A stretch of DNA of 64,000 bases from a virus. Made by a program: the position numbers and the translations under genes. Under the pieces are notes generated by a model. The model was not told where the DNA came from and did not search any database. It was given only the letters and a program-made list of their open reading frames with translations. Positions within the stretch are counted from its first letter, which is position 1. The number at the start of each line of letters is the position of its first letter. Positions 7,795 to 61,959 of this stretch are shown in pieces. The DNA lies in IMG/VR virus record IMGVR_UViG_3300021197_001481, positions 22,817-86,816 of that record; one strand, written 5' to 3'.

Positions 7795-7801
7795 GAAGCA
7801 A

Positions 7802-9742: not shown

Positions 9743-9750
9743 GGAATAAA

Positions 9751-41360: not shown

Positions 41361-41828
41361 ATGAACATCTTCGTACTTGATAAAAATCCAATTAGAGCAG
41401 CAAAGATGGCGTGTGATAAACATGTCGTAAAAATGATTTTAGAGTCAGCACAGATGCTGTGTTCGGTTCAACCAGAAGGAACCGCTCCCTACAAAAGATC
41501 TTTTTATAACCACCCGTGTACAAAGTGGGTTCGTGAATCTGATGCAAATTATGATTGGTTAATTGAGCATGGACTTGCTTTGTGTCGAGAATATACTTGT
41601 CGATATTTTAAGCACCATAAAAGTGAAAAGGTAATCGAATGGTGTGATGAAAACAGACCTCAACTTCCTTATATTGGACTCACACCACATCCAACGTGTA
41701 TGCCAGATAAGTACAAGGTAGATTGTGCGATTGAGTCGTACAGAAATTATTACAATGGTGAGAAAGCATATTTTGCTAAGTGGAAGAATGTTGATACACC
41801 CACTTGGTTTACAGGAGTATTTCAATGA
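41361..41828 (+). CDS. Conserved marine-phage protein of unknown function
   Basis: 155 residues from ATG 41361; a TTG at 41343 would add six residues but overlaps the -10 element. The family is recognisable: MNIFVLDKNPIRAAKMACDKH at the start, KMILESAQMLC, a Tyr/Asn-His-Pro-Cys-Lys-Trp stretch (NHPCTKWVRES) and a C-terminal FAKWKNVDTPTWF. It is widespread in marine T4-like phages, sometimes annotated as pyrimidine-dimer glycosylase, but I see no DenV catalytic N-terminus. Function unknown. It has its own strong promoter. Confidence 0.65.
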   Translation: MNIFVLDKNPIRAAKMACDKHVVKMILESAQMLCSVQPEGTAPYKRSFYNHPCTKWVRESDANYDWLIEHGLALCREYTCRYFKHHKSEKVIEWCDENRPQLPYIGLTPHPTCMPDKYKVDCAIESYRNYYNGEKAYFAKWKNVDTPTWFTGVFQ

Positions 41829-42811
41829 AACATGAAACAGTGTTAGTCACAGGTGGTGCAGGGTATATCGGATCACATGCAGTCCATGCCCTACTGGCAT
41901 CGGGCAGAAAAGTTGTTGTTATTGATAAAGATACTAAGGCATGTGAGAATCTAAGAAAAACATTCTCTAGACGAAAGAATAAACCACAAATACACAACTG
42001 TGACATTGATAACGATGTGTGGGTTAATGGTATTCTTGAAAACGAAAAACCATCGGCAGTGATGCACTTCGCCGCAGATATATGTGTTCCTGAATCTGTT
42101 CAGAATCCTTTGAAGTATTATAATAATAATACTGCTAAGACTATTAGTTTTGTAGAAAAACTTATTAGGAATGGAGTTCATCGATTTATTTTCTCTAGCA
42201 CCGCAGCGGTGTATGGGATGCCTCAGAACGCAGACAATATTGTAGAAAAAACCGTGTGTCAACCAATTAATCCGTATGGACAATCCAAACTAATGGTTGA
42301 GCATATTCTGAAGAAAGTTTCAGATTCTATTCCAGCATTTGAATACACTTCTTTTAGATATTTTAATGTCGCAGGATCTCATATTGATGGAAAAGTCACT
42401 GATGTTCGGTGGACGGAAAAACTCAACGTAGTTCCTACCTTTATCTCCCGGATTCTTAGTGGGAGTCAAATTTATGTTTATGGTACAGATTATAATACTC
42501 CAGATGGGACTGCTATTCGAGATTATATTCATCCAGAAGATATTATTTCCGCACACATGATTGCACTTGACGCGGAAGTTACCGGTGTGTATAATCTCGG
42601 ATCTGGTCAGGGATTTTCTGTGTGGAATATGATTGAAAATTTTGTTTCCGTTACAGGAGAAGAGTTAGATGTAATACATAAACCACGGAGAACAGGAGAC
42701 CCCGAAGTCCTAATTGCAAACTCTGACAAGTTTAGAAATATTACAGGTTGGGAACCAAAATATACCCTAAAGGAAATGGTTGCCACTGCATGGAAGGCGT
42801 ATGGTAGATGA
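41825..42811 (+). CDS. galE: UDP-glucose 4-epimerase-like (GalE) short-chain dehydrogenase
   Basis: 328 residues from ATG 41825 with SD AGGAG seven bases upstream; a longer TTG reading at 41804 is not supported. NAD-binding GGAGYIG (10-16), catalytic SSTAAVYG (124-131) and NPYGQSK with Tyr151 and Lys155. The C-terminal half contains RYFNVAG and GTAIRDYIH, typical of GalE. It would interconvert UDP-glucose and UDP-galactose (or the HexNAc forms) and could supply the GT6 or other transferases 5-18 kb downstream. ATGA overlaps on both sides. Confidence 0.9.
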   Translation: MKHETVLVTGGAGYIGSHAVHALLASGRKVVVIDKDTKACENLRKTFSRRKNKPQIHNCDIDNDVWVNGILENEKPSAVMHFAADICVPESVQNPLKYYNNNTAKTISFVEKLIRNGVHRFIFSSTAAVYGMPQNADNIVEKTVCQPINPYGQSKLMVEHILKKVSDSIPAFEYTSFRYFNVAGSHIDGKVTDVRWTEKLNVVPTFISRILSGSQIYVYGTDYNTPDGTAIRDYIHPEDIISAHMIALDAEVTGVYNLGSGQGFSVWNMIENFVSVTGEELDVIHKPRRTGDPEVLIANSDKFRNITGWEPKYTLKEMVATAWKAYGR

Positions 42812-46618: not shown

Positions 46619-47244
46619 CCTATTCGCAATTTGGACAAGATGATAAGATTTTAGAAATATTTGATGGTATTACAGATGGATATTTTTTGGATGTGGGCGC
46701 ACATTCAAGTGGAGAGGATACTCTTTTATTGGAAGAACTGGGGTGGTCTGGAATTTGTATTGAACCATTGGATAAGGAATTTTCTACACTAGTAAGTAAA
46801 CGAAAATGTATTTGTAAGAATATATGTATTGGTGATAAGAACGGAGAAGTTGATTTTCTCATGAATGAAGGATATACTTCTGCACTAAGCGGTGTACTAG
46901 AGTATTATTGTGATGCCCATAAACAAAGAATACAAACCGAGAAGAATAGTATGGGAGGACAAAGTTTTCTTATTAAAAGAGAGATGAAAACACTAACAAC
47001 TCTTTTAGATGAAGAAAACGCCCCGTCACATATTGAAGTGTTGAAGATAGATGCTGAAGGTGGAGAATTTTCAATTCTCTCTGGTATTGACTTCTCAAAG
47101 TATACATTCGACTTAATTACTATCGAAGGAAATTATCAAGAAGAAGTTGATCGGTGTGTTTCTCTTCTCTCCGAGAATGGGTATTCGTTTTTAAAGTTTG
47201 TTGGAATAGATATATTTTTCGGGAGAACCAATGAATCTGAGTGA
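46615..47244 (+). CDS. FkbM-family methyltransferase inserted between clamp-loader genes
   Basis: 209 residues, the usual FkbM domain size. SAM motif FLDVGAH at 24-30 followed by SSGEDTLLLE, acidic E50 in GICIEP, and the later VLKIDAEGGEFSIL at about 141-154 that is diagnostic for the family. FkbM enzymes O-methylate sugars or small molecules. It overlaps gene 44 by four bases and gene 62 by 14, so it is fully built into the replication operon. It may modify glycans made by the downstream cassette; that link is inference. Confidence 0.85.
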   Translation: MTYSQFGQDDKILEIFDGITDGYFLDVGAHSSGEDTLLLEELGWSGICIEPLDKEFSTLVSKRKCICKNICIGDKNGEVDFLMNEGYTSALSGVLEYYCDAHKQRIQTEKNSMGGQSFLIKREMKTLTTLLDEENAPSHIEVLKIDAEGGEFSILSGIDFSKYTFDLITIEGNYQEEVDRCVSLLSENGYSFLKFVGIDIFFGRTNESE

Positions 47245-47608: not shown

Positions 47609-47635
47609 TGATTTAATTTCAATAAGGTGAAAAAC

Positions 47636-48040
47636 ATGGATGAGAAAATAGAAGTTGAAGATCTCATCGAAGTGACTTTGAACTCCGATGAAGACTTCTT
47701 AAAGGTGAAAGAGACACTAACAAGAATTGGTGTTGCTTCACGAAAAGACAAAAAGTTGTATCAGTCTTGTCATATTCTCCACAAACGAGGAAAGTATTAT
47801 ATTGTACATTTCAAAGAATTGTTTTCTCTTGATGGTCTGAGATCAGATTTTTCCGAAGAAGACGAAGGAAGAAGAAATGCAATTGTTGGGTTACTTGGTG
47901 AATGGGGACTGGTCAATATAGTTGATGTGAATAAATGTTCCGAACCGATGACCCCAATAAGTAAAATTAAGATTATCAAATATTCCGAAAGGAATGATTG
48001 GGAATTGTGTCCTAAATATCATATAGGAAAGTCGAGATAA
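47636..48040 (+). CDS. regA: Translational repressor RegA
   Basis: 134 residues from ATG 47636 with AAGGTG upstream; a GTG at 47627 is an alternative. It matches T4 RegA closely over most of its length: DFLKVKETLTRIGVASRKDK, LYQSCHILHKRGKYYIVHFKE (in parts) and the end CPKYHIG. RegA binds the translation start regions of many early phage messages. In T4 gene 43 follows; here sugar genes follow directly. Confidence 0.95.
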   Translation: MDEKIEVEDLIEVTLNSDEDFLKVKETLTRIGVASRKDKKLYQSCHILHKRGKYYIVHFKELFSLDGLRSDFSEEDEGRRNAIVGLLGEWGLVNIVDVNKCSEPMTPISKIKIIKYSERNDWELCPKYHIGKSR

Positions 48041-48047
48041 GTTCGCT

Positions 48048-48710
48048 ATGAAAATTGATCTTTGTAATGTTCCAGTGAGGTGGATTAATGTTGATACCGC
48101 CACCGAAAATGCTAAATTAATGGAAGAGTTGTTCGAGCGACTAAGTATGAAAAATACTAGTCGCTTTTCTGCAATCACGAATGTCGATCCCCATGAGGGA
48201 GTTCGTCCCGGAGAAGAACACTATAGGAATTGTGCGGAGTCACATTTTGCTATTCTCCAAGAAGCAATCGATAATAAATCTTTTCCTGTTTTGATTCTCG
48301 AAGATGACGTAGATATTGAAGAGTCTGTCTTTACTACGAACCTAGACAATATTCCAGATGATGCTGATGCTATTTACATGGGAACTTCTCATGGAGACAA
48401 TAGGTATTCTGCTAAGGATGTCGGTGGTGGGTGGATGAAAATTGAAAGAGTATTTGCCACACATTCTATCATGTGGTTGAATGAAAAGATGGCAAAGGAA
48501 GTAATTGAAACAGGGAAGAGGTGGATCTATGAGAGGAACCATCCATTTGATGTGGGTATTGCATATGAACTACAACCAAAGTTCAACGTATACGCACCAC
48601 ATGTTCCTTTCTTTTTTCAAGCAGACGCGAAGAATAACAAAAACAAATGGGAGTCACTTACAAGAACTCCTCTTAGGAGAGAGAAGAAATTCTCGGTATT
48701 TTCAATATGA
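48048..48710 (+). CDS. Glycosyltransferase family 25-like protein
   Basis: 220 residues. A GT-A fold enzyme with VRWINVDTATENA near the N-terminus, ESHFAILQEAIDNKSFPVLILEDDVDI (about 64-90, in parts) containing the metal-binding LEDDV at 84-88, and a C-terminal PHVPFFFQ. This is the layout of LPS-type GT25 galactosyltransferases. Seven bases after regA, first gene of the sugar cassette. A second member lies at 53059. Donor and acceptor are unknown. Confidence 0.75.
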   Translation: MKIDLCNVPVRWINVDTATENAKLMEELFERLSMKNTSRFSAITNVDPHEGVRPGEEHYRNCAESHFAILQEAIDNKSFPVLILEDDVDIEESVFTTNLDNIPDDADAIYMGTSHGDNRYSAKDVGGGWMKIERVFATHSIMWLNEKMAKEVIETGKRWIYERNHPFDVGIAYELQPKFNVYAPHVPFFFQADAKNNKNKWESLTRTPLRREKKFSVFSI

Positions 48711-49504
48711 AAACAATAAGTTTTAATTTACTGGGTGACTATGGTCGCTTGGGAAACTCAATGTTTCAATGTGCTGCTGTGATAGGATCTGCGAAACATT
48801 CGGGACATGAACCAGTTTGTAATATTTCTAATATACCTCTTATTAAAGAGTGTTTTGAACTTGAATATATACGAGATGGAATAACTGATCCTGATTTTTT
48901 TGTATATGAAGATGATGATGGTACATACGTCAATGAGGCAGAAGACTTTCCACCACAATACAGCATTGATCTCCGGGGTTATTTCCAAACAGAAAAATAT
49001 TTCAGAAATGCTAAGAATGAGGTTCGAGAAAATTTTAGTTTTAAACAACACATTAGGGATATTGCTATCAATAAAATTCCAGAAGATGTTTGTGTTTCTG
49101 TACATGTACGCCGTGGTGACTATGTTGTATTGGGCAGTTATCATCCTACACAACCTGTCGAATATTATCGAGAAGCACTATCTTTATTTCCAAATCATCG
49201 TCCTGTATTTTTCTCTGACGATATTGCTTGGTGTAAAGAAAACTTTTCGGATATACCCGGAGCAATCTTTACAGAAAATGAAAATACATTAAATCTCAGT
49301 GCTGCGTTGAATTCTGATATCTCTGGTTATGTTGATATGTGTGCAATGTCTTTTTGTAATGATCATATTATTGCCAACAGTAGTTTTAGTTGGTGGGGTG
49401 CTTGGTTGGGACAGGGTAATGTTGTCGCACCAAAAAACTGGTTTGGTCCTGCAATTAGTAAAAATCCTAATGATATTTGCCCTGACCACTGGACTTTGAT
49501 ATAA
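48707..49504 (+). CDS. GT11 alpha-1,2-fucosyltransferase-like enzyme (copy 1)
   Basis: 265 residues. GT11 motifs are clear: GRLGNSMFQ (13-21), the GDP-binding HVRRGDY (133-139), FFSDDIAWCKENF (168-180) and SSFSWWGAWLG (226-236). Family members add L-fucose, or in E. coli O55-type strains L-colitose, in alpha-1,2 linkage to galactose. ATGA overlap with the GT25 gene. The adjacent copy at 49547 is a diverged paralogue, so two linkages or acceptors are likely. Confidence 0.9.
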   Translation: MKTISFNLLGDYGRLGNSMFQCAAVIGSAKHSGHEPVCNISNIPLIKECFELEYIRDGITDPDFFVYEDDDGTYVNEAEDFPPQYSIDLRGYFQTEKYFRNAKNEVRENFSFKQHIRDIAINKIPEDVCVSVHVRRGDYVVLGSYHPTQPVEYYREALSLFPNHRPVFFSDDIAWCKENFSDIPGAIFTENENTLNLSAALNSDISGYVDMCAMSFCNDHIIANSSFSWWGAWLGQGNVVAPKNWFGPAISKNPNDICPDHWTLI

Positions 49505-49509
49505 AGAAG

Positions 49510-49538
49510 TTGACAGGTAATACATTATGTGGTATACT
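49510..49538 (+). promoter_or_regulatory. Consensus sigma70 promoter with near-zero leader
   Basis: TTGACA (49510-49515) and TATACT (49533-49538) with a 17-base spacer. The ATG at 49547 is eight bases after the -10, so the transcript would begin at about the start codon. It is the only gap in the 12 kb of overlapping sugar genes and would drive the second half of the cassette. Confidence 0.75.
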
Positions 49539-49546
49539 TATAAACT

Positions 49547-50332
49547 ATGACGATACTCAGTTTTAACAATACAGGACAAAACAGTCTTGGGTGGAGACTT
49601 GGAAATCAGATGTTCCAGTATGCAAGTCTTCTCGGTATTGCAACAAAGAATGAATTGACTCCCTACTTTAATATTACAGACACATATTTGGGTGACTGTT
49701 TTAAACTTGGTGGTGTGGTTAACAAAGTTCAAGAAGAAGAACATTATAATATTTTTGATGGTAATCCCTACTTCAACCCCGGACTATTTAATTTAGACAA
49801 CAATTTAAACTTTGATTTAAATGGATATCTTCAAACAGAAAAGTATTTCTCACACTGCGAAACACAGGTTAAAAAAGAGTTTCAGTTTAAAGATGACATA
49901 GAGGATCGAGCAAAAAAGTTTCTACCAGAAGGTCAACTCGTATCCTTACATGTGAGACGAGGGGACTACCTAAACAAACCAGACTATCATACAAACTTAC
50001 AAATTGCATATTATGAAAGTGCAATGGAAAAGTTTAAAGACCATAGTCCTATTATATTTTCTGATGATATTGATTGGTGTAGAGAAAATTTATCTCACAT
50101 ATCAAAAGAAGTGCATTTTTCGGACAACCCACCTGAAGATGGAAACACTGGTGTATATGATGATCTTTGTATGATGACCATGTGTGATGGACATATTATT
50201 GCTAATAGCAGTTTTAGTTGGTGGGGTGCTTATCTTGGAGGTGGGACTACTGTTGCTCCTGTACATTGGAATGGTCCTGATGCTCCTCAGAATTTTCAAG
50301 ATATCTATCTTAAGGAGTGGATTCTTTTATGA
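49547..50332 (+). CDS. GT11 alpha-1,2-fucosyltransferase-like enzyme (copy 2)
   Basis: 261 residues with the same motif set as copy 1: WRLGNQMFQYASL (17-29), HVRRGDY (135-141), IFSDDIDWCREN and SSFSWWGAYLGGG. The N-terminal RLGNQMFQY is the more canonical version. It has its own promoter and no SD. It overlaps the next gene by four bases when that gene starts at ATG 50329. Confidence 0.9.
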   Translation: MTILSFNNTGQNSLGWRLGNQMFQYASLLGIATKNELTPYFNITDTYLGDCFKLGGVVNKVQEEEHYNIFDGNPYFNPGLFNLDNNLNFDLNGYLQTEKYFSHCETQVKKEFQFKDDIEDRAKKFLPEGQLVSLHVRRGDYLNKPDYHTNLQIAYYESAMEKFKDHSPIIFSDDIDWCRENLSHISKEVHFSDNPPEDGNTGVYDDLCMMTMCDGHIIANSSFSWWGAYLGGGTTVAPVHWNGPDAPQNFQDIYLKEWILL

Positions 50333-51237
50333 TTGATTCAGATAAAATTTTAGTAACAGGCGGTGGTGGTCTGGTTGGTTCTTGTGTGACAGGAACCCAC
50401 AAACCTCGATCAAGTGAAGTTGATCTCATGAATTTCAATGAGATCGATTCATACATTCGTGACAATAATATTGATTATGTTGTTCACTGTGCAGCAAGAG
50501 TCGGTGGTGTCAAAGAAAACTCTGAGAAACTAGGAGAGTTCTTTTATCAAAATATACAGATGAACCTCAATCTACTTGAGGCATGTAGGGTGAATAATGT
50601 TAAGAAGGTAGTCTCAACACTAACCACTTGCATTTTCCCTGCCGAAGCAACATACCCTCTCACATATGATCAACTCCACAACGGAGAACCACATGAATCA
50701 AACTACGGTTATGCATATGCCAAGAGGATGTTGGAGATCAACTCTAGAGCATACCGAGATCAGTATGGGATGAACATTGTTAATATTATTCCATGTAACG
50801 TATACGGTCCAAGAGATAATTTCAATGTTCAGGAAGGACACGTTGTTCCGGGTTTGATTAACAAAGCATATCATGCAAAATGGAGTGGATCACCTCTCCA
50901 AGTATGGGGTGATGGTTCTCCGCTCAGAGAATTTTTGTACTCTGAGGATCTGGGGAAGATCATGGACTGGGTTCTACATAATTACAATGATCCAGAACCG
51001 TTGGTTGCCTCGCCAGACGAGGAAATCTCAATTGGACACGTTGCCGAAAAACTTAAGGAAATTTATGGGTTGGACGAACTTGTGTTCCAAGACGACATGC
51101 CTATGGGTCAACTAAGAAAACCATCAGACAATAGTAAACTAAAGAGTCTACTAGACTTCGAGTTTACATCGTTTGATGATGGACTAGAAAAAACCGTATC
51201 TTGGTTTGACAATAATTATGAAAGTGCTAGAAAATGA
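50329..51237 (+). CDS. fcl: GDP-L-fucose synthase-like epimerase/reductase (possible GDP-colitose synthase)
   Basis: 302 residues from ATG 50329 (a GTG at 50317 is also in frame). NADP-binding VTGGGGLVGS (9-18), TTCIFP with Cys101, YAYAK with Tyr128 and Lys132, and GHVVP with His171, the catalytic set of the GDP-fucose synthases; Ser of the bacterial SSCIYP is Thr here. The wording HNGEPHESNYGYAYAKRM and NYESARK is much closer to the animal enzyme (TSTA3/GFUS, from memory) than to E. coli Fcl. Next to a ColD-like gene it may act as ColC. No Gmd is in the window. Confidence 0.85.
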   Translation: MIDSDKILVTGGGGLVGSCVTGTHKPRSSEVDLMNFNEIDSYIRDNNIDYVVHCAARVGGVKENSEKLGEFFYQNIQMNLNLLEACRVNNVKKVVSTLTTCIFPAEATYPLTYDQLHNGEPHESNYGYAYAKRMLEINSRAYRDQYGMNIVNIIPCNVYGPRDNFNVQEGHVVPGLINKAYHAKWSGSPLQVWGDGSPLREFLYSEDLGKIMDWVLHNYNDPEPLVASPDEEISIGHVAEKLKEIYGLDELVFQDDMPMGQLRKPSDNSKLKSLLDFEFTSFDDGLEKTVSWFDNNYESARK

Positions 51238-52373
51238 AAACTTGGAAACTAATGGACAAAGCAATCACTGCCGACCAGCGGGAAAGATTGTCAGATTTCA
51301 TACTAAATGAAGACAAGTTTTCTCAGGGAAAATATGTCCGAGAGTTTGAAGAAAAGTGGTCTGCATGGCAGGGTTGTAAGTATTCTGTCTTTGTTAACTC
51401 GGGATCATCTGCAAATTTTCTAGCAGTCCATGCTATGGAACGTCGAGGAGATGGACGAGATATGTGGGTCTCTCAAGCGTGTACATGGGCAACTACTGTC
51501 AGTCCAATCATGTTGTCTGGAAATAACCTACAGTTGTGTGACGTAAACATTCCCACACTGTCACCCAACATAGATTGTTTGAATCTTGTAATTGATAGAA
51601 TGAAACCAAACTATCTTTTTCTCGCAAACCTTCTAGGGTTTTCTGCACTAAGTGATGATCTACTACAGATCTGCGATGAAAATAAAATTACCCTCCTTGA
51701 AGATTGTTGTGAGTCTCATGGAGCAACATTTAAAGGAGAGAAGGTAGGTAATTTTGGAAAGGTTTCTACGTTCTCTTTCTTTTATGGTCATCATATGACA
51801 ACCATTGAAGGTGGTATGTGTTGCACAAACGACGAAGAAGTTTATGAAAAACTCCTCCTACTAAGATCACATGGACTACACCGAGAACTTCCAGAAACAT
51901 CAAGAGAGAGGTATGAAGATAAACTTGTAGATGAAAATTTTACTTTTCTTACTCCGGGTTTTAACGTAAGATCTACAGAACTAAATGCTTTGCTTGGAAT
52001 TATGCAATTGGAAAATCTAGATGAAAATATTCAAATCCGAAAAAACAACTTTGAGATTTTTGCCAGAGGACTAGATCCAAATCGCTTCTATGGTGATTTT
52101 GATATTGAAGAAAATTCTAGTTTCTGTTTTCCAGTTATTATGCGAAAAGAGACACCTGAAAATTTAAGAGAAGAACTCAGTAGGATGGGAGTGGAGACTC
52201 GACCAATCATTGCCGGGAATCTATTTCGTCATCCTTTCATGGATCGTGTCTCACAGTTTAGATTTGATGACAACGCAGAGATTGTTCACAATCATGGTTT
52301 CTATGTTGGTAACAACCACAACGTGAAACCAGAGGACGTTAGTTGGTTGGTTGATTTTTTGAATGAGGTTTGA
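51234..52373 (+). CDS. colD: PLP-fold GDP-4-keto-6-deoxymannose 3-dehydratase-like (ColD-like)
   Basis: 379 residues (ColD: about 388). DegT/DnrJ/EryC1/StrS fold with NSGSSANFLA (55-64) and the cofactor Asp in LLEDCCESHGA (D157). Where aminotransferases of this fold have the Schiff-base lysine, this protein has GHHMTTIEGG (185-194), with His186-His187. A His in place of Lys is the mark of the sugar 3-dehydratases ColD and E1, which remove the 3-hydroxyl. With the neighbouring reductase it would lead to GDP-L-colitose. ATGA overlap upstream. Confidence 0.8.
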   Translation: MKTWKLMDKAITADQRERLSDFILNEDKFSQGKYVREFEEKWSAWQGCKYSVFVNSGSSANFLAVHAMERRGDGRDMWVSQACTWATTVSPIMLSGNNLQLCDVNIPTLSPNIDCLNLVIDRMKPNYLFLANLLGFSALSDDLLQICDENKITLLEDCCESHGATFKGEKVGNFGKVSTFSFFYGHHMTTIEGGMCCTNDEEVYEKLLLLRSHGLHRELPETSRERYEDKLVDENFTFLTPGFNVRSTELNALLGIMQLENLDENIQIRKNNFEIFARGLDPNRFYGDFDIEENSSFCFPVIMRKETPENLREELSRMGVETRPIIAGNLFRHPFMDRVSQFRFDDNAEIVHNHGFYVGNNHNVKPEDVSWLVDFLNEV

Positions 52374-52375
52374 TC

Positions 52376-53062
52376 ATGAAAGTTTTAGTAATGAACATAG
52401 CGACAAACAAATACACACAGTTTGTCGATGATTTTTATAAGTCGTGTGAGCAGTTTTTCCTTCCCAATGTCGATGTGAGTTATCTTTTGTTTACGGATAA
52501 CATGGACTTTGATACTACAGTTAATGTGCCTTTTAGAAAGAGTTATGTTGAGCATAAACCATTTCCAGAACCAACACTAAAAAGATTTCATTACTTCCTA
52601 CAGGAACGAGAGTATATCGAGACGTTTGATTATGTCTTCTACTCTGATGTTGACATGAAATTTGTTCGACCGGTTGATCCCTCTGAAATTTGTTCAGATC
52701 TAACTCTCACAATACATCCTCTGATAAGAAAAAAAGAACAATTTACATACGAAACAAATCCTGAAAGCACTGCCTTTATCGACCCAACCAGAGAAGGTGA
52801 CCATTATTTTTGTGGTGGTTTCAACGGCGGATCTTCCAAAACATTTATGCAGATGTCAGATAATCTTTCTAATAACATTGACAAAGATGAAGAAAGAGAT
52901 ATACTTGCGGTGTGGCATGATGAAAGTCATATAAATCGCTATGCGATAAACAATCCCCCAACGAATATAGTTGATTGGTGTGTTACTGATTGGTATTGGG
53001 GTAGAACAGGACAAGGTAAACTAATTTGTTTATCTAAAGACCACGCGGAGATTAGATCATGA
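52376..53062 (+). CDS. GT6 glycosyltransferase (ABO/alpha-1,3-galactosyltransferase family)
   Basis: 228 residues from ATG 52376 (GAGG seven bases upstream). GT6 core: YSDVDMKF with DXD at 91-93, FTYETNPESTAFI (123-135), YFCGGFNGG (144-152) and AVWHDESHINRY (178-189) with the catalytic Glu183. The animal A/B blood group enzymes share the GGFFGG and WHDESHLN motifs. They add Gal or GalNAc alpha-1,3 to a galactose that carries alpha-1,2-fucose. Most bacterial members have NXN instead of DXD. No membrane anchor. Confidence 0.9.
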   Translation: MKVLVMNIATNKYTQFVDDFYKSCEQFFLPNVDVSYLLFTDNMDFDTTVNVPFRKSYVEHKPFPEPTLKRFHYFLQEREYIETFDYVFYSDVDMKFVRPVDPSEICSDLTLTIHPLIRKKEQFTYETNPESTAFIDPTREGDHYFCGGFNGGSSKTFMQMSDNLSNNIDKDEERDILAVWHDESHINRYAINNPPTNIVDWCVTDWYWGRTGQGKLICLSKDHAEIRS

Positions 53063-53676
53063 AATTAAATTTAACAGAATTGCCAGTTGTTTATATTAAC
53101 CTCGACAGAGACTCTGAAAAAAGACAGAGTATGGAAAAGATTTTTGATGAACACGGATTCAAAAACGTCCATAGATCTCCGGGGGTAATTGTTCCAAATG
53201 AACATGTATGCGTCGGCATATCTCACGCCTTTAGAGATGCGTTTGAGTTGGCGTTCTCCGTCAGTGATGGAGGTCCATTCTTGATGTTTGAGGATGATTT
53301 GGTTACAAGACCTTCTTTCAGAACAGAAATTGATATCCCGGATGATTATGACGCATGTTATCTTGGGATTTCTACATGGGCAAGAGTTAATGGAATAAGC
53401 GGTCCTTATTTACGGGGTGCCGATCTTCCCGACCGGTCTGACTTGATTCGTATCTATAATATGCTATCAGGACACGCTATACTTTATAGTGGAAATGAAT
53501 ATTCAAAAGTTATTCATGCTAAGATGACGAAAGCAATACAAGATAAAACATATCAAGACATTGAGTTTGCCGAAACTATGGGCAACTATAATGTTTATGC
53601 GTTCACTGATCCCTTTTTCTATCAATCGAGCAGCGAGAACGTGACTAATCTCACACTAAGTAAAAGCACAGTATGA
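53059..53676 (+). CDS. Glycosyltransferase family 25-like protein (copy 2)
   Basis: 205 residues. VVYINLDRDSEKRQSME (10-26) is the canonical GT25 N-terminus, followed by GISHAFRDAFELA and the metal site MFEDDL (76-81). It differs strongly from the member at 48048. Donor and acceptor unknown; the family includes LPS galactosyl- and glucosyltransferases. ATGA overlaps with both neighbours. Confidence 0.8.
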   Translation: MKLNLTELPVVYINLDRDSEKRQSMEKIFDEHGFKNVHRSPGVIVPNEHVCVGISHAFRDAFELAFSVSDGGPFLMFEDDLVTRPSFRTEIDIPDDYDACYLGISTWARVNGISGPYLRGADLPDRSDLIRIYNMLSGHAILYSGNEYSKVIHAKMTKAIQDKTYQDIEFAETMGNYNVYAFTDPFFYQSSSENVTNLTLSKSTV

Positions 53677-54503
53677 TAGGTATATTTCACGCAGGACAAT
53701 TAAATAATAATGGTCCCGGCAAAGTAGCAACTAATCTAATCAAGGGTCTAAAAAGACTTGGACACACGGTAGTAGAAAACCAAGAGGGCGATTATACCGG
53801 TTGTCTTGCATCATGGTCCCCCCGATTCAAGGATCTACCGAAAAAAACTTTGGTTGGACCAAATTTAGTTGTGCTTCCTACAGATGACCCTGAAATTTGG
53901 AGTTTGTTTAATAACTTAATTGTTCCATGTGATTGGGTTAAGAACTATTTTAACCACTTTCCGCTGACAAGAAATACAAACCTTCATATCTGGCCAGTTG
54001 GAATTGACACTGATCATTTTTGTCCTCATGGAGAAAAAGATGTAGACTGTTGCATTTATTTTAAAAATGGATCTGTAGACACAAGAAATGAACTTATTCA
54101 GATACTACAAGAAAAGGGTATGAGTTACATAGAAGTAAACTATGGAAATTATACCGAAGAAGATTTTATACAGGCAACGAGACGATGTAGATTTTGTGTT
54201 ACAATAACATCTACGGAAAGTCAAGGAATCGCTTACCAAGAAATATTATCTATGGGTGTCCCTTGTTATGTTGTGGAACAACCTATTTGGGATCACCGTC
54301 CGGGGTTCTCTTTCCCTGCCACATCTGCCCCATACTTTGATGTACGGTGTGGGATTAAATGTTTGGACTTATCTTTCTTTGATAAGTTCATCACTGAACT
54401 TCCAACCTTTAAACCAAGAAACTATATACTAGAGAATCTTACACTAGAAAAGTGTGCGAGTGAATACGTTTCGTTATTGGAAATTAGTAATGCCGATTTT
54501 TAA
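53673..54503 (+). CDS. GT-B fold glycosyltransferase (GT4-like)
   Basis: 276 residues, short for the fold. N-terminal GIFHAGQLNNNGPGKVATNLIKGL is the acceptor-domain start of GT4 enzymes with its glycine-rich loop; the C-terminal domain has TSTESQGIAYQEILSMGVPCYV, in which ESQG..YQE..SMG replaces the usual ExxGxxxxEAxAxG donor motif. Start overlaps the GT25 gene by four bases; its end overlaps the next gene by 14. Substrates unknown. Confidence 0.7.
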   Translation: MIGIFHAGQLNNNGPGKVATNLIKGLKRLGHTVVENQEGDYTGCLASWSPRFKDLPKKTLVGPNLVVLPTDDPEIWSLFNNLIVPCDWVKNYFNHFPLTRNTNLHIWPVGIDTDHFCPHGEKDVDCCIYFKNGSVDTRNELIQILQEKGMSYIEVNYGNYTEEDFIQATRRCRFCVTITSTESQGIAYQEILSMGVPCYVVEQPIWDHRPGFSFPATSAPYFDVRCGIKCLDLSFFDKFITELPTFKPRNYILENLTLEKCASEYVSLLEISNADF

Positions 54504-55326
54504 ATGTCATGGTATAGATTGGGTTTCTCCTCCTGATTGGTTTTCGACCGACAGAGACATTGCTCTAGTGCAAAGAATTTCTGATTGGACTCCCGAGGAA
54601 AACTTCTTTAATGTTTTTCTGGATTCACATGAACCTAATTTTTTTCTAGAAACAAAGTCATCTGAAGTTTTAGAACGACATGAAGATTTTGATTTAATTG
54701 TAACTAGAAGACCAGAATTGTTGCATCTTCCAAATGCAATTAGGTTTTGCTATGGTACAACTTGGATCCGCGAAGAGGTCAGAGAAAAACTATCAAAGAA
54801 CAAATCACCAAAGGTTTCGTATACGATGACTACCAAGTATTGGGAGAGTGAATCGGGTGAAACGGCAGATGGATATCAATTACGATTTCAAATTCTAGAT
54901 ATGTGGTCAAACGTAGAATCATTATCTGCACTACCTATTGATTTTTACGAGAGCGAAAAGTTCCCGATGGGAATATTTCCTCTAAGTTTAGAGGGGGAAC
55001 ATGGAAGAGATGTATTAATGGAGTATATGTTTCACATCGCCGTGGAAAACTGTCGAACACCAAATTACTTTAGCGAAAAATTGATGGATTGTTTTATGTC
55101 AAAAACACTACCAATTTATTTTGGATGTCCAAACATATCTGAATATTTCGATACATCTGGCATGATCATCATCGACAATCTTAGTAATTTAAATGTGGTT
55201 CTGTCAAATCTAACAGTGGATGATTATGAAACAAGAAAAGAAGCGATTGACAGGAACTTTGAGTTAGCAAAACAATATGAAAAATTCCCTGACAGATTAT
55301 TCACCGAGATAGAGAAAAGAATTTAA
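54490..55326 (+). CDS. GT10-like alpha-1,3/4-fucosyltransferase-type enzyme
   Basis: 278 residues from ATG 54490; a GTG reading at 54454 would overlap the previous gene by 50 bases. The C-terminal GDP-fucose site is recognisable: FHIAVENCRTPNYFSEKLMDC (about 181-201, in parts FHIAVEN and YFSEKLMDC), then LPIYFGCPNISEYF. This is the Glyco_transf_10 pattern shared with bacterial Lewis-type fucosyltransferases. The N-terminal half is diverged. It could use GDP-fucose or GDP-colitose. Confidence 0.7.
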   Translation: MPIFKCHGIDWVSPPDWFSTDRDIALVQRISDWTPEENFFNVFLDSHEPNFFLETKSSEVLERHEDFDLIVTRRPELLHLPNAIRFCYGTTWIREEVREKLSKNKSPKVSYTMTTKYWESESGETADGYQLRFQILDMWSNVESLSALPIDFYESEKFPMGIFPLSLEGEHGRDVLMEYMFHIAVENCRTPNYFSEKLMDCFMSKTLPIYFGCPNISEYFDTSGMIIIDNLSNLNVVLSNLTVDDYETRKEAIDRNFELAKQYEKFPDRLFTEIEKRI

Positions 55327-55328
55327 TT

Positions 55329-56021
55329 ATGACTAAACATTTGTTATTATGTTTTAGTTCGTTTCATGTAGATACTGATCCGAACAATAAACGAGAAGAA
55401 GAGTATGCCATTTGTTATGAACAACTTCTTAGAGTTTTACCAAGTGATTTTAATTGTAGGTTTATTGATAATACCACAAACAATATATCTGATATAAAAA
55501 ACGAAAGACTAAAAAATGTTCTTGCAGGAACTCCATCAATCTTGTATGATAACAACGTAGGAAAAACAAACAAAGGATTGGGTGAATTGGACATGTTGGT
55601 CCGAGCAAAGAAACTTCTAGACTTTTTGGATTATAAAACAATTAGTTACCACTCTGGACGTAAGATTGTAACCTGTCCATATGTCTTTGACAAAACCAGA
55701 GAAACTAAAAAAGATGCTATGTTGTCTAACCCCCCGATATATTCTCTAATGACAGGAACACCATATCCGATGGGAAAAAATCTTTACAATGATATGTTCT
55801 TTTCAATGGGAAGTGAAGTGATGTTACAGTATTGCGTATACTGTGAGACTATTCTTAAGAATGGATCTTCTGGGTTAGGTTCTGAGCAAATTTTATACAA
55901 TTTTATTAATGAAAACCAAATTGACTTTGAGTGGATTGAACATCTAGGATTTATTAGAAATGACTGGGAACTCTCGGGCAATGGATACACAAGACAAGAA
56001 GGAAATGCCCAGTGGATATAA
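55329..56021 (+). CDS. Unassigned protein in the glycan cassette, probable glycosyltransferase
   Basis: 230 residues, no family recognised. HLLLCFSSFHVD at the N-terminus and a mid part with SILYDNNVGKTNKGLGELDML (in parts) are reminiscent of GT-A-like enzymes that lack a classic DXD. The C-terminus contains ILYNFINENQIDFEWIEHLGFIRNDW, ending with the polypeptide NAQWI. It is flanked on both sides by sugar genes with almost no spacing, so a role in glycan transfer or modification is likely. Confidence 0.45.
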   Translation: MTKHLLLCFSSFHVDTDPNNKREEEYAICYEQLLRVLPSDFNCRFIDNTTNNISDIKNERLKNVLAGTPSILYDNNVGKTNKGLGELDMLVRAKKLLDFLDYKTISYHSGRKIVTCPYVFDKTRETKKDAMLSNPPIYSLMTGTPYPMGKNLYNDMFFSMGSEVMLQYCVYCETILKNGSSGLGSEQILYNFINENQIDFEWIEHLGFIRNDWELSGNGYTRQEGNAQWI

Positions 56022-57112
56022 GAAATGAAGTTTTACCTGTCTTGCGACCTGTTGGTGGTGTCGAAGAAATAAATGCCTTATCCGATGTAATAAACAGTGG
56101 GTGGTGGGGTAAAGGTCCAAAGGTAACCGAGTTTGAAAAGAAGTTTGCAGAGATGGTTGGTGCAAAGTATGCAGTTGCTGTTAGTAGCAACACTCATGGA
56201 TTGGATTTGGTTTTAAAGGCCAAAGGTATTGAACATGATGACGTTATCAGTCCAACAATGTCTTTTGCTACAACCGCTATTGCTCCCTTGTGGAACAACT
56301 GTACGTCTACTATTGTGGATGTTGAAAGAGATACACTTTGTATTGATCCAAAATCAGTCAAAGAAAACCTGTCTCCAAATACAAAAGCAATCATTGCAGT
56401 AAACATGGCGGGAGTTCCTGCCAAGATTGATGAGATTAGAAATTTTTATGATGGATTTATCATTGAAGATTGTGCCCATAGTTGTTATACTTATGGTGCA
56501 GGTTCTAAAGGAGATGTTGCAATTTGGTCTTTTCAAGCAGTAAAAACTATGCCCTGTGGTGATGGGGGAATGATAACAACTAATGATAAAGAACTATATG
56601 AAAAACTAGTTCCTATGTCTTGGATGGGAATTTCCAGTACACACGAAAGAACAAAGGGTGTAGATGGTAAACCCGGATACTCTTGGGATTATGATATTAA
56701 ACTACTTGGAACCAAATCATATATGATTGATATATCGGCGGCAATTTGTTTGGAACAAATGAAGAAACTTCCAGATGCTTTGGAAAGAAGACGATACATA
56801 CAAAAAACATATAACGAACAACTAAATGAAATATTAGAAATTCCCGTTTGGTCTGAAACAGTTCAACACTATGGAGCAAGAGTACATCTAAAAGAACACA
56901 GAAATAAACTTATGGATTACTTAGCAGATAAAAAGATACACACATCGGTACACTACAAACCCCTTCATCTACACACTTTATTAAAGGATGGTAAGAAATT
57001 ACCGGTAGCAGAAGAAGAGTGGCAAAAACTTATATCTTTGCCTTGTCATTCTGCGATGACACAAGAAGACATTGATTATGTAATTTACTGGGTAAAGGAA
57101 TATTTTAAATGA
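56012..57112 (+). CDS. DegT/DnrJ/EryC1/StrS sugar aminotransferase
   Basis: 366 residues from a GTG that overlaps the previous gene by ten bases. PLP enzyme with the intact lysine: SFQAVKTMPCGDGG (173-186), Lys178, and Asp153 in IIEDCAHS. GWWGKGPKVTEFEKKFA and SSNTHGLDLVLKA are usual for nucleotide-sugar aminotransferases. It would convert a keto-sugar nucleotide to an amino-sugar, most simply the product of the RmlB encoded downstream. Contrast with the ColD-like relative at 51234, which lost the lysine. Confidence 0.88.
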   Translation: MDIRNEVLPVLRPVGGVEEINALSDVINSGWWGKGPKVTEFEKKFAEMVGAKYAVAVSSNTHGLDLVLKAKGIEHDDVISPTMSFATTAIAPLWNNCTSTIVDVERDTLCIDPKSVKENLSPNTKAIIAVNMAGVPAKIDEIRNFYDGFIIEDCAHSCYTYGAGSKGDVAIWSFQAVKTMPCGDGGMITTNDKELYEKLVPMSWMGISSTHERTKGVDGKPGYSWDYDIKLLGTKSYMIDISAAICLEQMKKLPDALERRRYIQKTYNEQLNEILEIPVWSETVQHYGARVHLKEHRNKLMDYLADKKIHTSVHYKPLHLHTLLKDGKKLPVAEEEWQKLISLPCHSAMTQEDIDYVIYWVKEYFK

Positions 57113-57159
57113 AAGAAAAAGTAAAAATTGATGATCGATACGTATGGAGTCCTAAGTGA
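57109..57159 (+). CDS. 16-codon mini-ORF linking two sugar genes
   Basis: ATG overlaps the preceding stop (ATGA) and its own TGA overlaps the next start (GTGA), so ribosomes could pass through: MKEKVKIDDRYVWSPK. It contains the SD (GGAG, 57146-57149) for the next gene. It may be only a coupling leader or the remnant of a lost gene. I see no homology. Confidence 0.3.
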   Translation: MKEKVKIDDRYVWSPK

Positions 57160-58010
57160 ACACACTTTATACAATTGAAGGGACTAAAAACAATGACCAG
57201 AATCCAATCTATAACTCATTGGACCATCCAGACTTTCAAGATAAACTGTCACAGTTCAAAGAAACCTTAGTTTCTTGTTTTTCTAATAAACAATCTAAAA
57301 CTTTTTATAAGTTTGGGGACGGTGACTATTATTTTCTTCGGGGTGAGGGAATTGGTAGTGCAACACCCGGAAGAAGAGCATTATCAAAAAAATATTCTGA
57401 TATTAAACACGAAGAGTTTGTGTCAGGCGTTCCCCTGAATGACTATATCGGAGTTGAAACTTACAACATACCACTATTTTCAAGTCTTTATCCAGATAGA
57501 CCGGCAGACTATTATGCCGAATATGGATATGGGTTGACTGCAAATAAATGGTTGACTGCCACATTTGGAGAATCTATTGGTGTCATTGGAGCAGGTCCAA
57601 AGATTCGACTCATTGAGGAACTCATACAAAATAAAGAGTATCAAGAGTATCTTGGTCTAGAGAAGTTTACCGACTACATTGAGATACCACAAAAATTTGC
57701 ATGTGATGATATCGATGAAACGGAAAGAATGGTAGGGGAGCAGTTGAGTAACTCATCATCTAAAATTTTTCTACTAGGGATTGGGCATGTAAAATCCGCT
57801 TTGCTGCATCGGTTGAAGAAATATACAAATGCTATTTTCTTGGATGTCGGCAGTGGCATCGATGCTTTGGCAGGAATAATAGATCACAATCGTCCTTACA
57901 TGGCAAACTGGACAAACTACAGAACTACTAATTTTGACTACAGTTCCTTAGATATTTTACAGTATGATATATGGAACACCCCACACAAGATGTTAAAGGA
58001 AAAGGATTGA
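57156..58010 (+). CDS. GT-D fold glycosyltransferase-like protein (DUF1792 type)
   Basis: 284 residues from a GTG with a well placed GGAG. FYKFGDGDYYFLRG (about 50-63) matches the N-terminal acidic motif of the GT-D fold (xFGDGE), and the C-terminal IFLLGIGHVKSALLHRL then AIFLDVGSGIDALAG matches its nucleotide-binding and Asp-containing end. GT-D enzymes were described from streptococcal adhesin glycosylation and transfer glucose to protein-linked glycans. That precedent suggests protein glycosylation, but specificity cannot be read here. Confidence 0.65.
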   Translation: MNTLYTIEGTKNNDQNPIYNSLDHPDFQDKLSQFKETLVSCFSNKQSKTFYKFGDGDYYFLRGEGIGSATPGRRALSKKYSDIKHEEFVSGVPLNDYIGVETYNIPLFSSLYPDRPADYYAEYGYGLTANKWLTATFGESIGVIGAGPKIRLIEELIQNKEYQEYLGLEKFTDYIEIPQKFACDDIDETERMVGEQLSNSSSKIFLLGIGHVKSALLHRLKKYTNAIFLDVGSGIDALAGIIDHNRPYMANWTNYRTTNFDYSSLDILQYDIWNTPHKMLKEKD

Positions 58011-58012
58011 AT

Positions 58013-58759: not shown

Positions 58760-59210
58760 CATATACGAGGATGAACGCGGGGCATTTTCAGAAATTTTTC
58801 GTGCTACATCTCATGACGTAAATTTTGTGCAAGATAACCTTTCCGTTTCAAAGTCAGGTGTCTTGCGTGGTCTTCACCACCAAACAATAAAACCTCAAGG
58901 GAAACTTGTTGTTGTTTTGGATGGAAACATACAGGACGTAATAGTTTCATTAAAAACTAAAAGTGTTTTTTCGTATGACCTGAAAAGAGGAGATTGCCTT
59001 TGGGTTCCGCCAAACTATCTTCATGGGTTCTTGTGTTTGACAGATAGTATGGTCATGTACAAATGCACCAATTATTATGACTCAGGATCAGAGATCTCTG
59101 TTGACGCTTTCGATTCTCACCTAGATATAGAGTGGAAGATTGATCGGAAAAATATTATTCGTTCAGAAAAAGATTCTTCTGCTCTTTTATATGATGAGGT
59201 TATATCGTGA
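58731..59210 (+). CDS. rmlC: dTDP-4-dehydrorhamnose 3,5-epimerase-like cupin (RmlC-like)
   Basis: 159 residues from ATG 58731 (GGGA upstream); longer readings run through rmlA. DERGAFSEIFR (14-24), QDNLSVS (34-40) and VLRGLHHQ (44-51) with the catalytic His, plus the NYYDSGSE turn. RmlC has about 180 residues, FdtA-type ketoisomerases about 140; the RGLHHQ motif favours RmlC. No RmlD reductase is present, so the pathway may end differently from rhamnose. Confidence 0.8.
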   Translation: MKDPKKFHLNIYEDERGAFSEIFRATSHDVNFVQDNLSVSKSGVLRGLHHQTIKPQGKLVVVLDGNIQDVIVSLKTKSVFSYDLKRGDCLWVPPNYLHGFLCLTDSMVMYKCTNYYDSGSEISVDAFDSHLDIEWKIDRKNIIRSEKDSSALLYDEVIS

Positions 59211-60139
59211 AAACAATAATGGTTACTGGATGTGCAGGATTTATCGGAGGACATGTGACAGAACGTCTACTGTCTGATGGGTATGATATACTCGGTGTTG
59301 ATTGTCTAACATATGCAGGAAACATGGACTTGATGGATAGACTACAAAACAATCACAAATTACATTTTACCTTCAACCAAAAAAGAATTGGTGAACTAAG
59401 TTCGTCTGATTTAGAACATGTAGACCTTGTGGTAAACCTTGCAGCAGAAACACATGTGGACAACTCAATAAAAAGTAGTGATCCTTTTGTGCAAACAAAT
59501 ATAGTGGAAACACACCATCTATTAGAAAAGTGTAGAGAAAGTAATACTCCACTATTACATTTTTCTACCGACGAGGTATATGGTGTAGTTTTAGATGGTT
59601 CATTCTGTGAAACAGATCCACTGAAACCCAAGAATCCATATTCAGCAACGAAAGCAGCGATTGATCATCTTATTACATCATATCAAAACACATATGGATT
59701 ACAATCAACTATCATAAGACCGTCAAATAACTTTGGTCCAAGGCAGAACGATGAAAAGTTCATACCAACAATTACAAGATCAATCAGGAATCAAAATAAA
59801 ATACCTGTGTATGGAGAAGGACAGCAAGTTAGAGAGTGGACATACGTCAAACATACTGCCGCCGCCGTATCATTTCTCTGTAATAAGTTATTACAGGGAG
59901 AATGCTTTGGAGAAATTTTTAACTTTGGTACATCAGTTGAAATGAAAAATGTTGACTTGGTTAAAAAGTTGTGTAAAATAATAGGAGTTAGTTTTGAAGA
60001 CTCCGTTGAGTTTGTGACCGACCGCCCCGGTCATGATTTCAGATACAGTGTGAACTGTAAAAAGATCTCGAATCTAGGGTTTATTGTCGAACCCAACATA
60101 AATAAAGAATTAGAAGAAACATTAGAGGAATTGAAATGA
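59207..60139 (+). CDS. rmlB: dTDP-glucose 4,6-dehydratase-like (RmlB)
   Basis: 310 residues from a GTG (GAGG eight bases upstream), slightly short for RmlB (about 340-360). VTGCAGFIGGH (6-16), VDCLTYAGN (31-39), LAAETHVDNSI (78-88), the hallmark STDEVYG (120-126) with the dehydratase Asp-Glu pair, and NPYSATK with Tyr145 and Lys149. It makes the 4-keto-6-deoxy sugar that the aminotransferase at 56012 or RmlC would use. Confidence 0.92.
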   Translation: MKTIMVTGCAGFIGGHVTERLLSDGYDILGVDCLTYAGNMDLMDRLQNNHKLHFTFNQKRIGELSSSDLEHVDLVVNLAAETHVDNSIKSSDPFVQTNIVETHHLLEKCRESNTPLLHFSTDEVYGVVLDGSFCETDPLKPKNPYSATKAAIDHLITSYQNTYGLQSTIIRPSNNFGPRQNDEKFIPTITRSIRNQNKIPVYGEGQQVREWTYVKHTAAAVSFLCNKLLQGECFGEIFNFGTSVEMKNVDLVKKLCKIIGVSFEDSVEFVTDRPGHDFRYSVNCKKISNLGFIVEPNINKELEETLEELK

Positions 60140-61518
60140 GCAGACCCACCGTTACACTATGCATGATCGTTAAAGATGAAGAACATATTATTCATGAGTG
60201 TTTGGATTCGATGAAACCATACGTTGATCGATATGATATCACCGACACGGGTTCGACCGATAGAACCAAAGAAATTATTAAAGAGTGGGGAGAAAAGAAT
60301 AACATTCCCGGAACTGTCTACGACGCTCCTTGGCGTGGGTTTGGTAAGTCTCGTACAGAATCTCTGAGAAACGCAGACAAGGGTGGTGCAGACTACTCTT
60401 GGGTAATTGATGCTGATGATAAAGTCGGAGGAAACTTTGTTTACCCTCCCCAGTTTGGGCAACACTGTGGGTATACTCTTAAGATTAATAGAGGAGACTT
60501 TGAGTGGTGGAGAAATCAAATCTTCAAGAACAATATGGGGTGGGAGTATGTTGGTGTAATTCACGAATATGCAAACTGCCCTAAACTTGAAGAAGAAGCA
60601 GCAGCAGGTCGAGGAACCGCCAGACTTGCAGGAGATTACTTCATCGATGCCCGAACAATGGGTAATAGAACAAAAGAATTTGATGTTCAATTAAAAGAGG
60701 GCGAGCAAGAAACTCCGGGACAAGAGCAGTGGAGAAAGAAGTATCTTGCAGATGCAGAAACTATTCTTGATTGTTTGACAAATCCCGAGAATGAAAACTA
60801 CGAACCAGATAATCTTAGATATTACTTCTACCTTGCACAATCATACTTTGACGGTGGTGACTTCAAGAGTGCGAAAGAGTGGTACGAGAAGCGAGCAGAG
60901 AAGGGTGGATGGGAAGAGGAGCAGTGGTACTCTGTTCTTCGTGTCGCAATGTGTATGACCAATATGGGTGAGAAGTGGCAAGACTCACAAGATGTATTCT
61001 TACAGGCATACAATCTTAGACATACCCGAGTAGAACCTTTATTCAATCTTGCCAGAATTCATCGATTAAATGGAAATCCTAAACTGGGATATCTTTTTGC
61101 TAAGATGGGATGTCAGATAACGCTTCCACCACAAGATGTTCTTTTTGTGGCAAAAGATGTATATGAATGGCAAATCTTCGATGAACTTGCATCCACTGCA
61201 TGGTATACCGGAGATATGCAAGCAGGTCTCCTAGCATCTAATAAACTTCTTAGCGAAAAGAAGTATCCAGAAGAACACCATGAACGTATTCTAAACAACT
61301 GGAAGCAGTATGTTGCTTGGCAAGAAGAGCAAGAAAAGCAACAAAAGGCAGCAGAAGCAGAACATACCAAGCAAAGAATCTTACATGAAGAAGCACAGCG
61401 TCAAGAAACAGAGAAAAGAAAACTCGAAACTAAGAATCGGGAACAACAAAAGAAGATAAATAAGAGGAGACAGAAGCAAAAAAATGCGAGCAAGTCTCGT
61501 AAAGCATCGAGGAGATGA
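60136..61518 (+). CDS. GT2 glycosyltransferase fused to helical repeats and a Lys-rich coiled tail
   Basis: 460 residues. GT-A domain in the first 180 residues: LCMIVKDEEHIIHECLDSM, DTGSTDRTKEI (37-47) and the metal site IDADDK (91-96). Residues about 215-390 are TPR-like helices (YYFYLAQSYFDGGDFKSAKEWYEKRAE read in parts). The last 70 residues are a basic, Gln-rich coiled coil. Related tumour-necrosis-like GT2-TPR fusions occur in marine phages; acceptor unknown. It is the last sugar gene and the next structural gene starts four bases later. Confidence 0.8.
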   Translation: MSRPTVTLCMIVKDEEHIIHECLDSMKPYVDRYDITDTGSTDRTKEIIKEWGEKNNIPGTVYDAPWRGFGKSRTESLRNADKGGADYSWVIDADDKVGGNFVYPPQFGQHCGYTLKINRGDFEWWRNQIFKNNMGWEYVGVIHEYANCPKLEEEAAAGRGTARLAGDYFIDARTMGNRTKEFDVQLKEGEQETPGQEQWRKKYLADAETILDCLTNPENENYEPDNLRYYFYLAQSYFDGGDFKSAKEWYEKRAEKGGWEEEQWYSVLRVAMCMTNMGEKWQDSQDVFLQAYNLRHTRVEPLFNLARIHRLNGNPKLGYLFAKMGCQITLPPQDVLFVAKDVYEWQIFDELASTAWYTGDMQAGLLASNKLLSEKKYPEEHHERILNNWKQYVAWQEEQEKQQKAAEAEHTKQRILHEEAQRQETEKRKLETKNREQQKKINKRRQKQKNASKSRKASRR

Positions 61519-61521
61519 TAC

Positions 61522-61959
61522 ATGGCATCCGGTAGATATGACATAACCGCAGAACAAGGAGTTACTTTCAAACTCCACCTTCGTTATAGTGATTCTAATG
61601 ACACTTTTATCGATTTAGATCCTGACTTGGGGTGGACAGGAAGACTTCAGGTTCGTCGTTCCCCTGACGATCCGGATATTTTATTGCATGTTACAACCAA
61701 TGGTGTAACTGGTGGTGGAGTAACAGGGGAATTTGTTTCTGGTGCAGGAGTTGTCGGTTCTGGTGGTATCACCATGAACGCATCTGCCACGGGCGGCACT
61801 GGTTTAAGTGGAGGCGTTTTGATTGGTATTGATGCATCTAGCATGTCTAACGTCCCCAAAGGGAATCACTTCTATGATCTAGAAATTGTCAAAGATGGCA
61901 CTATTGTGACAAGACTTCTCAATGGTAGATTCAGTGTCGATAGGGAAATCACTAGATGA
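61522..61959 (+). CDS. Fibre-associated structural protein of unknown function
   Basis: 145 residues. Opening GRYDITAEQGVTFKLHLRYSD and the strand WTGRLQVRRS match a family of short phage proteins placed just before fibre genes, with an immunoglobulin-like or BppU-like beta fold. The middle is Gly-rich (TGGTGLSGG). It overlaps the fibre gene by four bases, so equal expression is likely; a fibre base or adaptor role is inferred. Confidence 0.55.
   Translation: MASGRYDITAEQGVTFKLHLRYSDSNDTFIDLDPDLGWTGRLQVRRSPDDPDILLHVTTNGVTGGGVTGEFVSGAGVVGSGGITMNASATGGTGLSGGVLIGIDASSMSNVPKGNHFYDLEIVKDGTIVTRLLNGRFSVDREITR

Follow-up and report, generated by a model that had tools for sequence, protein, structure and literature searches.

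Modules that pair a glycosyltransferase (GT) of family GT11 with one of family GT6, with or without the deoxysugar genes for GDP-mannose 4,6-dehydratase (GMD), Fcl and ColD, are common in marine T4-like phages and are not new, having already been annotated in isolates: P-SSM2, Bellamy and ACG-2014f carry GT11 and GT6, ACG-2014f also has GMD, Fcl and ColD, and by 2014 two cyanophages were known to have GT6 (PMC3961637). The same family logic is found in E. coli O86, where WbwK (GT11) makes an alpha-1,2-fucose end to which WbnI (GT6) then adds alpha-1,3-galactose (PMC4202792), although there the product is a bacterial O-antigen with its own export, and phage GT6 has a DXD motif where bacterial enzymes usually have NXN. 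Here we analyse such a gene cluster from a marine T4-like phage, in a stretch of 64,000 nucleotides (the window) that covers positions 22817-86816 of IMG/VR virus record IMGVR_UViG_3300021197_001481, a linear 86.8 kb contig that is itself a fragment. The cluster resembles the P-SSM2/ACG-2014f-type clusters of Kyanoviridae, i.e. GMD-Fcl-(ColD)-GT11-GT6-GT25 modules in T4-like phages, but lies between regA and gp43 and is without GMD; conversely, in that type no GT10 was found and no adjoining pair of GT2-TPR and collagen-like genes was seen. It also resembles the S-SM2/S-SSM7/S-SRM01-type clusters of T4-like cyanophages, which combine GT10, several GT11 and GT25 but have no GT6. With moderate confidence, we read the window's block as a variable glycan-assembly cassette whose most likely target is the collagen-like fibre of the phage itself.

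The main new result concerns the right end of the block and its pairing with a fibre gene, which lie outside the region (48048-55326) described in the earlier note; that note had left the target open between the phage's fibres and the host surface, and gene order beyond its region points to the collagen-like virion fibre. The last transferase of the block, GT2-TPR (60136..61518; on the plus strand, like GalE and the other genes from regA to the fibre gene), consists of a GT2 domain (PF00535, 38.2 bits) and TPR repeats, and is proposed to be a protein O-glycosyltransferase that primes the glycan. It is followed by ORF145 (61522..61959; phrog_1084), a small companion of the fibre gene that lies near GT2-TPR in most relatives, and by a gene whose translation is a collagen-like (Gly-X-Thr)n fibre (61956..64000), which runs off the contig end. 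The window fibre has 12 G-X-Y triplets with Thr at 66% of the Y positions, and scores 16.4 bits against Pfam Collagen, under the cut-off of 27.2. In the two nearest relatives, the metagenomic contigs L007 and L008 that also carry the block, the same pairing is followed by the DNA polymerase gene gp43. A scan with GT2-TPR, whose homologues in two relatives have 84% and 63% identity to it, found 278 contigs; among the 67 fetched loci having at least 1.5 kb of downstream sequence, a collagen-like open reading frame (ORF) lay downstream of GT2-TPR, at up to 4 kb, in 49 and upstream, at up to 6 kb, in none, against a background rate of 6 collagen-like ORFs in 1427. Thr occupied 53-94% of Y positions in all 14 scorable GT2-TPR loci closest to the window. 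The nearest solved relative of the GT2 domain in profile comparison is GmaR (E 9.5e-15, 57.5 bits), the flagellin O-GlcNAc transferase of Listeria. The two proteins have a GT2 catalytic domain in common, in the N-terminal part of the phage protein, which also has TPR repeats; GmaR acts on flagellin, whereas the proposed substrate of GT2-TPR is the collagen-like fibre. Within the cassette no membrane-spanning segment was predicted, and nowhere on the 86.8 kb contig was a multi-span protein predicted. The fibre is therefore favoured as the target, because the GT2-TPR/collagen-like pairing recurs, the GT2 domain matches GmaR and no multi-span protein is predicted on the contig.

Several points weigh against a fibre target. 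Synteny is no proof of target, and the likeness to GmaR spans only the ~97-residue catalytic N-terminus of GT2-TPR. Cyanophage-type GT6 clusters are rarely near a collagen-like ORF, and their target may differ, e.g. the host surface. Enrichment in Thr is confounded by the relatedness of the loci; the association between Thr content and presence of the cassette (Mann-Whitney p 0.002) is affected by this and by the 6 kb flanks, and is not used as proof. The contig, a fragment, gave no match over the cut-off for GMD. The cassette lies in the replication region, which is often expressed before virion genes, and published views favour a change of the host O-chain (PMC9602691, PMC7029224). The latter is the standard reading for cyanophages and pelagimyophages, i.e. 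that the enzymes remodel the outer polysaccharide of the host (O-chain or capsule) in infection, masking receptors from co-infecting phages and relying on host carriers and export. Early or middle expression from the replication region would fit such a role, as would the combination of GT11 and GT6 with gmd/fcl, which follows the E. coli O86 O-antigen logic (PMC4202792). However, as no multi-span protein is predicted on the contig, it appears to encode neither a flippase nor a polymerase, a point against a self-contained O-antigen pathway, and the link of the cassette to GT2-TPR and the collagen-like fibre is constant; we regard host remodelling as possible but rather unlikely.

The same gene order, i.e. 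regA, GT25, GT11, variable sugar genes, GT2-TPR and a collagen-like ORF, is shared by 12 related genomes (G000-G004, G006, G007, G009 and G011-G014, counted irrespective of kinship), with gp43 after the collagen-like ORF in seven and the remaining contigs ending or being cut before that point. GT6 is present in six of the 12 and GT10 in 11, so the middle of the block is its variable part. It is proposed that the constant ends (regA-GT25-GT11 on the left, GT2-TPR and the fibre on the right) stay in place while the genes between them are exchanged. A different arrangement would be two targets, with GT2-TPR acting on the fibre and the GT25, GT11, GT6 and GT10 enzymes on the host surface, the two sets of genes having only their place of insertion, between regA and gp43, in common. 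GT2-TPR with a collagen-like ORF does occur in phages in which no GT6, GT11 or GT10 was detected in the 6 kb upstream, and cyanophage GT6 clusters occur without an adjoining collagen-like ORF, but 6 kb flanks miss longer cassettes. The cassette genes are also co-directional with intact frames and mostly 4-base start/stop overlaps, and their order is constant in the 12 genomes, which makes two separate targets improbable.

The earlier note had described two GT11 genes, a GT6, a GT10-like gene and GT25-like genes within 48048-55326, and profile and fold searches confirmed these families; GT6 and GT10, the two assignments on which its proposal depended, both held, GT6 with a wide margin (108.5 bits, cut-off 25) and GT10 barely (25.9 bits, cut-off 23.9). 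The active-site motifs are apparently intact and the block is intact in L007 and L008, i.e. there are no signs of inactivating losses. The GT6 gene (~52376..53062; PF03414) encodes an ABO-type retaining transferase that matches BoGT6a (E 2e-34) and human GTA/GTB (~1e-25). With residues numbered from the TTG at 52370, it has DVD at 93-95, CGG at 148, WHDES at 182 (with E185) and K223..R229, so that the metal-binding DXD, the catalytic Glu and the C-terminal Lys/Arg of the metal-dependent members are all present. The roles of these residues have been described, and DXD has been tied to metal dependence, nearly all bacterial GT6 having NXN instead (PMC3961637). DXD was found in all 81 phage GT6 proteins examined and the K..R pair in 80 of them; the window GT6 is probably metal-dependent. 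The [C/A]GG motif of phage GT6 lies where the human A enzyme has Gly-268, and its Gly-268-like residue suggests that GalNAc is favoured as the donor sugar. A betaproteobacterial metagenome-assembled genome also has a DXD-type GT6, adjoining a convergent GT11 (L105:7851-9772), unlike the NXN usual in bacteria. Scanning genome contigs with the GT6 alignment gave just three bacterial loci, too few to show where phage GT6 came from.

Both GT11 copies match the family profile (PF01531, cut-off 23.9) and carry the HxRRxDY-type motif. GT11a (48707..49504; 88.6 bits), a GDP-L-fucose/colitose-type transferase and the copy common to L007 and L008, has HVRRGDY, SDDIAWC and NSSFSWW, and GT11b (49547..50332; 122.2 bits), which adjoins Fcl and ColD, has HVRRGDY, SDDIDWC and NSSFSWW. 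Membership of GT11 does not fix the linkage, because the family includes the alpha-1,3 enzyme HhFT2 (PMC4202792); the earlier note's alpha-1,2 (H-type) ends therefore stand as to family and remain a prediction as to linkage. The GT10-like gene (54490..55326; PF00852) encodes a putative alpha-1,3/4-fucosyl(colitosyl)transferase. In addition to the marginal profile score, phmmer aligned its protein with H. pylori FucT (E 1.6e-7), including the nucleotide-site motif EN..YFSEK, and the top eight Foldseek matches of its fold model (pLDDT 72) in the PDB were all GT10 fucosyltransferases, with E of ~1e-6 to 2e-5 and TM of only 0.37-0.44. GT25a (48048..48710; phrog_24091), which follows regA in relatives too, is placed in its family by profile (PF01755, 25.3 bits, cut-off 24). 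GT25b (53059..53676) has no Pfam match but is homologous to GT25a, and is placed there by its predicted fold: the model (pLDDT 88) matched mimivirus R655 and human COLGALT1 best, followed by bacterial beta-1,4-galactosyltransferases, and a profile match to R655 (E 4e-7) agreed. The likeness of the GT25b model to collagen-type GT25 enzymes is counted in favour of a fibre target. The assignment of 53673..54503 to a GT-B/GT4-like transferase, also made in the earlier note, is plausible but weak, its one match being sub-threshold (PF13439, 20.1 bits, cut-off 28.5); the gene has homologues in L007, L008 and P-SSM2.

Two further explanations were weighed. According to work cited in PMC12619734, phage glycosyltransferases can hypermodify phage DNA; however, the recognised families extend glycans, and GT2-TPR and GT25b both have proteins or glycans as the substrates of their nearest solved relatives, so that phage DNA was rejected as the target on enzyme types and has a negligible chance of being correct. 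The genes could also be cargo from bacteria without a present role, and the content of the clusters does differ between phages. Against this, pN was far below pS for all six transferases common to the window and its nearest relative (with synonymous sites near saturation, so that dN/dS is only indicative), the motifs are intact in ~80 phage GT6 genes and GT6 recurs in 374 viral contigs, and we consider cargo very improbable. Between the window and L007, the best conserved transferases are GT25b (88%) and GT2-TPR (84%), with GT10 at 44%.

Two genes within the block would supply the deoxysugar. Fcl/ColC (50317..51237) is a predicted GDP-L-fucose or GDP-L-colitose synthase that scores 192 bits with NCBIfam GDPFucSynFcl, under the curated cut-off of 500; among solved GDP-L-fucose synthases its best match is 4bkp, presumably the human enzyme (267 bits), the E. 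coli enzyme giving 131-132 bits. The nearest phage relatives of this protein come from huge uncultured phages, at 45% identity. The product of 51234..52373 is probably a ColD-type 3-dehydratase and not an aminotransferase, because it matches ColD (2gms, 210 bits) better than the CDP-sugar dehydratase E1 (3bcx, 122 bits) and has His at the position of the pyridoxal phosphate (PLP) lysine (FYGHH at 183; the same HH occurs in all nine phage ColD proteins checked). The GT11 enzyme of E. coli O55, WbgN, is a colitosyltransferase whose acceptor is a bacterial glycolipid, and both WbgN and FUT2 accept GDP-fucose as well as GDP-colitose (PMC11987014). As ColD is present, GMD is missing from the contig and GT11 enzymes accept both donors, a colitose version of the H-type end is as likely as a fucose version; it is possible that the host supplies the GMD function. 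The deoxysugar pathway that the earlier note called matching is thus represented by Fcl and ColD beside the block, with GMD absent from the contig and GDP-colitose as a potential donor. To the right, a DegT aminotransferase (56012..57112; PF01041, 288 bits; PLP lysine motif SFQAVK), RmlA (57971-58759; PF00483), an RmlC-like protein (start probably ~58731, to 59210; PF00908) and RmlB (59207-60139; PF16363/PF01370) form what is predicted to be a separate dTDP-deoxysugar supply. In the two relatives (L108:6938-8263 and L109:8200-9540, the latter on the minus strand) the place that RmlB has in the window, directly ahead of GT2-TPR, is taken by an RfbH-like dehydratase with an HH motif, so that the type of deoxysugar changes between relatives. 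UDP-Gal/UDP-GalNAc could come from a probable GalE nearby (41804..42811; PF01370, 181 bits; called GalE by eye), whose L007 homologue is 75% identical.

In a scan with the GT6 alignment, 374 viral contigs had a match. Of the distinct loci, 44 (the window among them) had the full 10 kb of upstream sequence; in these, GT11 lay upstream of GT6 in 39, GT25 was a neighbour in 42, and Fcl, GMD and ColD occurred in 27, 23 and 6, respectively; the 10 kb count supersedes those from narrower windows, in which GT11 was near GT6 in 39/74 and 36/48. GT6 with GT10 is rarer. Across 50,697 phage records, 71 had GT6 and 20 the GT10 type with zero overlap among the matches listed, a few low-ranking GT6 records falling outside this comparison. 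A scan with a single GT6 protein and one with the GT10 alignment found no contigs other than L007 and L008, and profile searches of 18 records found GT6 with GT10 in these two only; GT6, GT10 and GT11 occur together on contigs G004, G005, G006 and G022 as well, of which G004 and G005 appear nearly identical. In all, GT6 stands with GT10 on six metagenomic contigs besides that of the window, two of the six being nearly identical; most of the contigs compared are fragments. The blood-group-type set that the earlier note had singled out is therefore present with all three families, but GT11 with GT6 was already known, and the triple is rare, not unique, GT6 with GT10 being its unusual part.

From the observed families, retained motifs, gene order and recurrence a route for fibre glycosylation can be proposed, in which each linkage is predicted from the enzyme family, the target from gene order, and the sugars and the order of steps likewise from the genes. 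GT2-TPR, which is related to GmaR, would put the first sugar on Thr of the Gly-X-Thr repeats, and the GT25 enzymes would add a beta-linked Gal-type sugar. GT11 would then add L-fucose or, given ColD, L-colitose to form an H-type end, GT6 would add alpha-1,3 GalNAc or Gal to this end, and GT10 would add a second fucose or colitose. The GT6 step probably precedes the GT10 step, because inner fucose blocks BgtA and WbnI, both of family GT6, and the two fail on Lewis b (PMC12723683). The defined branched glycan that the earlier note expected from GT11, GT6 and GT10 is in keeping with the families, the apparently intact motifs and the sugar route, its linkages being predicted from family. Exchange of middle genes between the constant ends would give different sugar types on the fibre. 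More tentatively, we suggest that the block may be a 'glycotype' locus, i.e. that swappable genes between fixed ends put different blood-group-like branched glycans, some of them colitose-based, on the Gly-X-Thr repeats of virion fibres.

The left flank of the cassette has the T4 gene order 45-44-62-regA, with regA (47627..48040; PF01818, 144.8 bits) as its constant 5' neighbour, also in relatives. The large terminase subunit, TerL, is 60% identical to that of Methylophilales phage Melnitz and 59% identical to those of cyanophages, and psbA was absent from the three contigs searched (the window contig, L007 and L008, all fragments). A cyanobacterial host was not adopted, given the lack of psbA on these three fragmentary contigs and a TerL about equally near Melnitz and the cyanophages. 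Two genes of the block have no family: 55329..56021 has no Pfam, NCBIfam or PHROG match, and 57156..58010, with an FGDGD motif and a GT-D fold suggested by eye, has no Pfam or PHROG match. Between gp44 and gp62 the window has an FkbM-type methyltransferase-like gene (46615-47244), where L007 (7192-7752) and L008 (387-1007) have methyltransferase-like genes that, judged by eye, are apparently of other types. Contig L003 encodes two adjacent proteins (302-1372 and 1423-2451) with dockerin-like DxNxDG repeats (DLNGDECINARDLGLLLGEWG) and, at 7550-9817 on the minus strand, a Cys/Gly-rich protein of 755 residues (CGVCNCGVCNG, CGGGC repeats).

A parallel for sugars on a virion is mycobacteriophage virion glycosylation (Freeman 2023, as cited in PMC12619734), where glycans were shown by experiment on capsid and tail tube proteins and are attributed here to phage-encoded glycosylation, whereas those of the window phage are predicted from its genes. 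The usual answer for the sugar genes of marine phages is a change of host lipopolysaccharide, and the pairing with a fibre gene gives a concrete and testable alternative. If this is true, such phages would have sugar-coated virion fibres and phage 'serotypes' would arise from exchangeable ABO/Lewis-type transferases. Phages are also a pool of DXD-type GT6 and of GT11 enzymes.

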